This document shows positions 1,462 through 2,916 of a DNA stretch of 64,000 nt, one piece after another; the stretch's first letter is position 1; each line of letters starts with the position of its first letter. This DNA comes from Geomonas azotofigens (lineage in GTDB: Bacteria > Desulfobacterota > Desulfuromonadia > Geobacterales > Geobacteraceae): the NCBI RefSeq assembly GCF_018919395.1, contig NZ_JAHLME010000003.1, positions 496,001 to 560,000 on the forward strand. Reading direction: 5' to 3'. The notes under the pieces were generated by a model that was not told where the DNA came from, searched no databases, and saw only the letters and a list, made by a program, of their open reading frames with translations. The translations under genes and the position numbers were made by a program.

Positions 1462-2853
1462 TCATTTGATGGTGAAGCCACCTTCCTGGTTTGGAGTGAT
1501 GGTGGCGTCCAGGTACTGGACCTGGTAACCCTTCTCCTTCAGGATGGTGTAGGCCATCTCGGCGCGGGTGCCGGTGTTACAGTGCAGCACGACCTTCTTC
1601 TCCCTGGATATCTCTCCCAGTCGGTCGACAATCTCGTCGGCCGGGATGTTGACCGCGCCCTTTATCATCCCCGTTTTGGCGGCTTCGTCGGCGCCCCGCA
1701 CGTCCAGCAGTTGCACCCCGACCGGAATTGCGCGGGCGAAGGCCTGGAACTCGTTGACCGGTATGGTGCCCGGCTTTGGCTTGGGAACGTAGACGACCTG
1801 TACGGCCGGTTTCCCGGTGGCGGCCTGATAGCCGGCCCCCTTCCAGGCGGCGTAGCCGCCGGTGAGGACGCGGGGACCCGGATAGCCGGCCTTGATCAAC
1901 CTGGCCGCGACGCGCTCGGCGCTGCCGTCGCCGGTGGCATCGTAAAGCACCACCGGAGGCTTCAGTTCCCGCTTCGGGAAGTTCGCCAGGGCCTGATCCA
2001 GTTCCCGTTCCGGCACGTTGGTGGCGCCCGGTATGAAGCCTTGTGCCGCCTGTGACTCGGGGCGGACATCGAGGAGCACGAACGAGAGGCCTTTGTCCAG
2101 CCACCCCTCCTTGAGGGCCTGGGCGCTCACCACGGTGAAGTTGCGGCTGTTCCATTCGGGGATGCCATCGTGGAAGATCTTTACGTTGCTGTAGCCGAGT
2201 TTCTCCGCCTCACGGGCGGACGAAGGGCTGAGCGCTCAAGTGACGCCGGCGCAAAAGTAGACCAGCAACTCCGCCTTGTTCTTGGGGAGTTTGTCCAGAT
2301 TCTTTTGGAACGCGGGGTAGGGGATGTTGATCGCGGTCGGGATGGTCCCTTCCTGGAACTTCGCGGCCGGTCGCGCGTCGACGAGCGTGTATTTCTCCTT
2401 ACCGGTCAAAAGCTTTTCCACCTGTTCGACCTTCAGCTGCTTTTCGGCGGGGACCTTCATCGCCGGCTTGATGGATATCTCGCTGATCTTCTTGATCCCG
2501 TTGAGTCCTTCCTGGTACGCCACCCGCACCTCGTGCCCCTTCTTGATGGCTCGCAGCGACTTCTCGAGGTTACCCGGGACCGTGGCGTTGACGATGCTCA
2601 GGGTGTCCTTGTCGAAGGCGACCACCTCGGCGCCGTCATCGAACCGCAGCTGGATCGTTTGCGATTTCATAGCGACGCTGTCGAAAAATGCCCGCAGTTG
2701 TCCCTCCGCGGGTTTGTGACAGACCGCGCACGATTTGACGTCTCTCGCCTTGTTCTTTGCCTGTGCGGCCTCGCCTGCAACTACGCCGTGCGCTGTGAAG
2801 AGCGCGACTACTGACAGAGCGGCTAGCGAACAGCTGGTTATTCTAAGCGACAT
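1462..2853 (-). CDS. exported heme c / triple-rhodanese selenoprotein (in-frame TGA at codon 206)
   Basis: Two same-frame ORFs (2853-2239 and 2235-1462) are separated only by TGA at 2238-2236, and homology runs through it. Read as one protein it has 463 residues: a signal peptide (about 1-27), one heme c site CAVCH near residue 42, a linker, then three rhodanese modules. Module 1 (about 115-235) reads VYFCAGVT-U-ALSPSSA. The U position matches the catalytic cysteine of CxGxxCxLSxxSA-type rhodaneses, and the usual AExLGY follows directly. Module 2 has LYDATGDGSA, with no cysteine in the active loop, so it is probably inactive. Module 3 has HCNTGTRA and keeps a cysteine. The ATG at 2853 has AAAGGAGG upstream (a GTG at 2856 is possible). 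Rhodanese folds transfer sulfane sulfur or selenium; the combination with a periplasmic heme suggests redox or sulfur chemistry, but the role is unknown. The alternative is a nonsense mutation, which is less likely because both halves are intact. Confidence 0.8.
2204..2220 (-). promoter_or_regulatory. candidate bacterial SECIS hairpin
   Basis: Directly downstream of the TGA on the coding strand, TCCGCC pairs with GGCGGA around the five-base loop CGTGA. Fifteen bases separate the TGA from the stem, so the apical loop starts about 22 bases after it. The loop has G as its second base. Published descriptions of bacterial SECIS elements require a loop about 16-37 bases from UGA with a G in its first two positions, and this hairpin meets both. 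I saw no SelA/B/C/D genes in the window. Confidence 0.6.
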
Positions 2854-2916
2854 CACTTTTTCCTCCTTTGGGAATGTCATAGCGTCGGAGCCGGGGGGGC
2901 TTGTACTACGTATCGG

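Follow-up and report, generated by a model that had tools for sequence, protein, structure and literature searches.

A gene on the minus strand of the analysed stretch of DNA (64,000 nucleotides, hereafter the window) almost certainly encodes a selenoprotein, in which the UGA codon at 2236–2238 would be decoded as selenocysteine (Sec) by means of a SECIS hairpin within the gene and the SelA/SelB/SelC/SelD machinery of the host. The full-length product (P0001) is predicted to be exported and to carry one covalently bound c-type heme and three rhodanese modules, and its identification as a selenoprotein with a general role as an exported heme- and rhodanese-containing sulfur protein is likely to hold. 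The gene starts at an ATG at 2853 and terminates at a TGA at 1464–1462, and the frame runs from the signal peptide through the CAVCH motif and the first rhodanese module across the internal TGA into the second and third modules without a frameshift, as the preliminary description of this DNA had claimed (Table 1). That description had also stated that module 2 lacks a catalytic Cys and module 3 retains it, which was confirmed by an Asp (YDATGDG) and a Cys (HCNTGTR) at the respective positions, and that automatic annotation would divide the gene, which is what standard-code ORF calling does, yielding ORFs of 214 and 223 aa. Pfam family PF00581 matches P0001 over three rhodanese stretches (156 bits, E 3e-46), and the CxxCH motif is retained in all ten close Sec orthologs and in 49 of the 53 relatives without the TGA. 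Residue numbers of P0001 are counted from position 2880, in which the TGA is residue 215; counted from the ATG at 2853, it is residue 206. The query genome is nearest to Geomonas, with 87% protein identity to the ortholog of Geomonas diazotrophica.

Table 1. Features of the selenoprotein gene and its predicted product (window coordinates; residue numbers of P0001).
Feature	Position	Strand	Basis
Predicted heme c/triple-rhodanese selenoprotein gene with one internal TGA	1462..2853	-	Frame reading; homologs in the order and the phylum
Shine-Dalgarno-like sequence AAAGGAGGAA ahead of the ATG	2860..2869	-	Sequence
Probable Sec-pathway signal peptide (MSLRITSCSLAALSVVALFTAHGVVAG)	2773..2853	-	Sequence; boundary judged by eye
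CAVCH heme c attachment motif	2716..2730	-	Sequence motif; CxxCH conservation among relatives
Rhodanese module 1, containing C210 and predicted Sec215	2131..2445	-	Profile matches; structure alignment
Canonical (persulfide) Cys of rhodanese module 1, residue C210	2251..2253	-	Alignment with the loop Cys of 6mxv and 3nhv
In-frame TGA, predicted Sec215, in FCAGVT-U-ALSPSSA	2236..2238	-	Homologs on both flanks; Cys in relatives
SECIS hairpin TCCGCC-CGTGA-GGCGGA (loop 2214..2210)	2204..2220	-	Hairpin prediction; comparison
Rhodanese module 2, with Asp at the catalytic position (YDATGDG)	1837..2085	-	Pfam; alignment
Rhodanese module 3, catalytic Cys434 in HCNTGTR	1501..1767	-	Pfam; structure model; alignment

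Sec insertion, proposed in the preliminary description, is strongly supported by the sel genes, the Cys-containing relatives, the SECIS element, and the homology downstream of the TGA. All four sel genes are present in the query genome: SelA, SelB, and SelD scored 607, 394, and 358 bits, respectively, above the curated cut-offs, and selC was identified as tRNA-Sec both by Infernal (75 bits) and by ARAGORN (anticodon tca). The selD frame of this genome is itself interrupted by one TGA. The order to which the query genome belongs was searched over 141 genomes, of which 10, including the query, have the TGA at this very codon with full-length homology on both flanks. Five named relatives (three of Geomonas, one of Geomobilimonas, and one of Citrifermentans) bear it, and the TGA-bearing relatives are 65–87% identical on either side of the codon. 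At the same column, 51 of 53 TGA-less relatives possess a Cys residue. The dN/dS values across the ten orthologs are 0.139 for the codons preceding the TGA, 0.087 over the 34 codons from the TGA to the first start-like codon, and 0.195 for the remainder.

The hairpin begins at the 16th base past the TGA, with its loop 21 nt past it, and the G in the loop described previously was confirmed as the second loop base. Its 6-bp stem and 5-nt loop lie within the constraints given for bacterial SECIS (bSECIS) elements, namely, a loop of 3–9 nt, a stem of 4–16 bp, a G among the first two loop bases, and a distance of 16–37 nt from the UGA (PMC13188914). Hairpin stability alone was not unusual when compared with dinucleotide shuffles (z -1.05); the SECIS element is supported by its position, its covariation, and its conservation. 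For the stem, the covariation score in 17 sequences from the order was 0.422, compared with 0.145 +/- 0.033 for shuffled sequences and at most 0.21 for slid pairings, and three stem pairs are altered on both sides. When the 46 distinct TGA sites of the order and the phylum were considered together, covariation was 0.33 versus 0.13, and 45 of the 46 sites have a hairpin of the bSECIS type whose register hardly varies, versus 26% of codon shuffles. All 46 sites have the loop G, which is followed by G or U at 45 of them, and the loop reads GGTCT at 14. Furthermore, the five codons across the hairpin form the longest synonymously invariant run of the gene among the ten orthologs; in the whole gene, 21% of the invariant-residue codons use a single codon. 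An Rfam scan of the window returned two tRNAs only and gave no match to a SECIS family.

Two other readings of the TGA were weighed against Sec insertion. If the codon were a true stop, one message would give two proteins, an N-terminal heme-binding protein with half a rhodanese domain and a re-initiated protein with two rhodanese modules; these are just the two ORFs obtained by standard-code calling, and a possible restart GTG is located at 2133. However, the break would fall within the active-site loop of the rhodanese, 51 of 53 relatives read straight through this position with Cys, and the SECIS hairpin covaries. Above all, the 34 codons that stop and restart would leave untranslated, from the TGA up to the GTG, are the most constrained part of the gene because their dN/dS (0.087) is the lowest, and re-initiation, which is highly improbable, was rejected on this ground. 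A pseudogene, a sequencing error, or recoding of the TGA as another residue could likewise be suspected from a lone TGA within an otherwise intact frame, but the codon is kept in the 10 genomes described above and, outside the order, at the 30 phylum loci that were opened, purifying selection is strong, the terminator of the gene is itself TGA, and a tRNA-Sec (tca) is present. These comparative data already refute this group of explanations, which is even more improbable than re-initiation, and the conservation of the TGA, of its two flanking sequences, and of the hairpin across the ten genomes rules out chance.

The preliminary description had placed Sec at the catalytic Cys position of module 1, and this assignment is not supported. 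Profile alignment to solved rhodaneses identifies C210 as the canonical Cys (YCGGG in 6mxv and YCWGPAC in 3nhv), and Cys434 of module 3 (HCNTGTR) is the counterpart of C210. Because C210 is the canonical Cys, the predicted Sec215 takes the place of the second Cys in a loop of the CxxxxC type, like that of 3nhv; by alignment, Sec215 is thus the +5 partner in a CxxxxU pair, five residues after the catalytic Cys. Among the 53 TGA-less relatives, C210 is conserved in 52 and C434 in all 53, and an Asp residue occupies the catalytic position of module 2 in 44. An AlphaFold model built from six sequences had a mean pLDDT of 59.6, with values below 50 at residues 210–217, and is usable for the general fold only; because of this poor quality, the C210–Sec215 geometry is not measurable from it. 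The Foldseek matches of this low-confidence model are rhodaneses.

Homologs occur in 75 of the 141 genomes of the order, and 17 of the order's genomes carry Sec at the loop position of Sec215. A phylum-wide sample gave matches in 41 of 395 genomes, with a TGA in 32 of 45 matched places, and the 30 TGA loci that were opened outside the order have the TGA at the same loop position (C-x-G-x-x-U). The combination of CxxCH and Sec was found in 13 genomes outside the order, distributed over five families (f16, f22, f54, f61, and f68), and others are heme-less; the earlier view of a heme-Sec rhodanese as an oddity is therefore not supported. A tree of 76 rows requires nine changes between Sec and Cys, of which eight are forced by well-supported branches, and its root is not fixed. 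Since Sec occupies most of the deep branches, the simplest reading of this unrooted tree is an ancient Sec that may have been replaced by Cys repeatedly. In the order-level tree, the ten Sec rows of the Geomonas group form one clade, the sister of which (L030) has Cys. Genome G138 contains two copies of the heme-less triple rhodanese (L084 and L089), one with Cys and one with Sec, and the Cys copy is nested in the Sec clade, as in a recent Sec-to-Cys replacement. In family f34, four loci (L180, L185, L186, and L187) form a clade among the heme versions in which Sec is present and CxxCH is absent; their placement suggests that these proteins retained Sec and either shed the heme or had never acquired it. 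Plasmid records contained distant rhodaneses only, and PADLOC returned zero matches.

The gene neighbourhoods differ between the two types. An operon resembling those of polysulfide or thiosulfate reductases (psr-like) adjoins the TGA-less heme versions in 23 of 29 neighbourhoods. It encodes a TAT-exported molybdopterin enzyme, which is PhsA-like (552 bits, under the cut-off of 694 of the PhsA model), a 4Fe-4S protein, and an NrfD protein (PF03916). Of the Sec neighbourhoods, 0 of 21 have it (nine belong to heme versions within the order and twelve to loci outside it), although these counts are drawn from related genomes and hence are not independent. The best match of the query genome to the psr-like molybdopterin enzyme has only 30% identity, which, together with the lack of the operon beside the Sec versions, counts against the role proposed below for the query protein. 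The presence of this operon beside the closest Cys relatives fits a sulfur-handling role. In four of nine Geomonas-group Sec loci, the Sec rhodanese gene is directly followed by one encoding a nine-CxxCH cytochrome (L014:5476-7347, L015:5551-7416, L016:5552-7417, and L091:7496-9364). This cytochrome gene is absent between 1346 and 1462 of the window, and its nearest homolog in the query genome is 40% identical and located elsewhere. A 37% identical homolog lies within the psr/heme-rhodanese region of L099.

Periplasmic handling of sulfane sulfur is a reasonably probable function of the protein, and a possible catalytic mechanism can be proposed from the arrangement of its residues. The sulfane sulfur of polysulfide or thiosulfate may be accepted as a persulfide on C434 of module 3 and/or C210 of module 1. 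Sec215, which lies in the loop of C210 (C-A-G-V-T-U), could then resolve the C210 persulfide through its selenolate, so that sulfide is released and a selenenyl-sulfide is formed; this assignment of Sec215 as the resolving residue is tentative and somewhat short of an even chance. Electrons from the periplasm would reset the selenenyl-sulfide, possibly arriving by way of the heme or of another periplasmic donor. Putative coupling of heme to sulfur transfer, which the preliminary description had proposed, is plausible, and direct participation of the heme in the redox step that resets Sec215 is the rather unlikely part of this scheme. A single heme carries one electron and the reduction of a selenenyl-sulfide takes two, which counts against the proposed mechanism. 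In the Cys-type relatives, the sulfur would probably be passed to the neighbouring polysulfide/thiosulfate-reductase-like enzyme in the manner of Sud in Wolinella. The further proposal that the Sec versions work on their own as a reductase of polysulfide (persulfide), supplied by the covalent heme, and that the Cys versions are a derived, sulfur-passing form, is doubtful.

Two other functions compete with sulfane-sulfur handling. The protein could be a selenium-handling selenoprotein, i.e., a periplasmic carrier of selenite or selenide (as perselenide) that works with the ext selenite/tellurite-reduction system: ext cytochrome genes adjoin the TGA-less heme versions in 11 of 29 neighbourhoods, NCBIfam names ExtM after a 'selenite/tellurite reduction operon', the query genome contains an ext cluster, and a rhodanese is able to carry selenium as perselenide according to work cited in PMC5877670. 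However, the Sec gene and the ext cluster of the query genome are on different contigs, and the psr-like operon is twice as frequent (23 of 29), which makes a selenium carrier unlikely. A periplasmic thiol or peroxide redox relay, in which CxxxxU serves as a dithiol-like pair without any role in sulfane-sulfur chemistry, would agree with the fact that selenoproteins of known function are mostly redox enzymes, with the resemblance of CxxxxU to a redox pair, and with the occurrence of the Sec versions alone or next to the nine-heme cytochrome. It has about the same small likelihood as the selenium carrier, and against it stands module 3, in which the canonical loop (HCxTGxR) is intact and the Cys is conserved in 53 of 53 relatives.

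Sud, which belongs to the polysulfide respiration of Wolinella, has a single rhodanese domain and is not known to contain Sec or heme. As a periplasmic sulfur carrier, it nevertheless provides a functional model for the Cys versions, which adjoin the polysulfide/thiosulfate-reductase-like operon. In Wolinella, Sud is a periplasmic sulfurtransferase that accumulates polysulfide chains (PMC3397948). Among selenoproteins, a 2026 review lists five rhodanese-type forms, including form 1 (UxxS) and TsoB (UxxxxU), and credits form 1 (WP_010941598.1) to an earlier bioinformatic prediction (PMC13188914). Form 1 has a rhodanese domain in which Sec is followed by xxS, like U-A-L-S in the query, in a comparison made by motif and Pfam domain description only, and it may be the single-domain type seen at L171. 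On the reverse strand of that locus, from the same bacterial family, a single-domain rhodanese with VVYCASPTUSAS is likely a CxxxxU selenoprotein and fits UxxS. Rhodanese matches with a TGA at L170, L172, and L173 were discarded as trailing stop codons. TsoB (NF045694) has Sec at +5 of the rhodanese loop like the query and matches module 1 weakly, but it is a rhodanese/DsbD fusion-like protein with Sec at both loop positions, and membership was rejected (54 bits versus a cut-off of 805). The rhodanese-related (seleno)protein family NF041203 also has a rhodanese domain with Sec close to the catalytic Cys; its motif is, however, CxU (LYCAU) with Sec at +2 rather than +5, and the score of 77 bits was below the cut-off of 115. 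A rhodanese-related selenoprotein has also been reported from the Sargasso Sea (PMC1088965).

In Geobacteraceae, ExtKL is a predicted c-type cytochrome selenoprotein (PMC5877670, PMC6148476). It resembles the query as a periplasmic protein with heme c whose frame contains a TGA; it differs in being pentaheme and in having no rhodanese modules. The ExtKL frame of the query genome (L120:6102-7538, contig C1) reads through its TGA as GHSIPDG-U-PTPNR, in agreement with the published prediction. ExtH of the same bacteria is an exported rhodanese-type lipoprotein of about 49 kDa and was considered on account of its similar mass, but its identity with the query was rejected. In contrast to the query, it belongs to its own family (NF040901) and has neither CxxCH nor an internal TGA in its frame, and P0001 is not matched by NF040901 (cut-off 200), to which the ExtH of this genome scores 606 bits. 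In the NCBIfam search, zero models reached their cut-off for P0001, and a description of a heme-bearing triple-rhodanese selenoprotein was not found in the literature search. The protein thus belongs to a known kind, the rhodanese-type selenoproteins, and the form combining heme c with three rhodanese modules appears to be new, form 1 having been compared by motif only.

Standard ORF calling breaks a selenoprotein that lacks a curated model into two genes, and here a whole family, with no NCBIfam model reaching cut-off for the query, unites heme c, Sec, and rhodanese chemistry in a single exported protein. Because the Cys versions adjoin a sulfur-reductase-like operon and the Sec versions stand alone, the two types constitute a natural experiment on Sec in sulfane-sulfur chemistry, set in sulfur- and metal-respiring bacteria. 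If the proposal of a stand-alone reductase were true, this would be an unnamed, phylum-wide family in which Sec makes a sulfur carrier a self-contained persulfide reductase. At 1041–1346 of the window, convergent with the Sec gene, lies a gene for an exported-type protein of 101 aa, which is matched by zero Pfam or NCBIfam families; its gene is kept near the Sec gene in a relative (L014:7467-7772).
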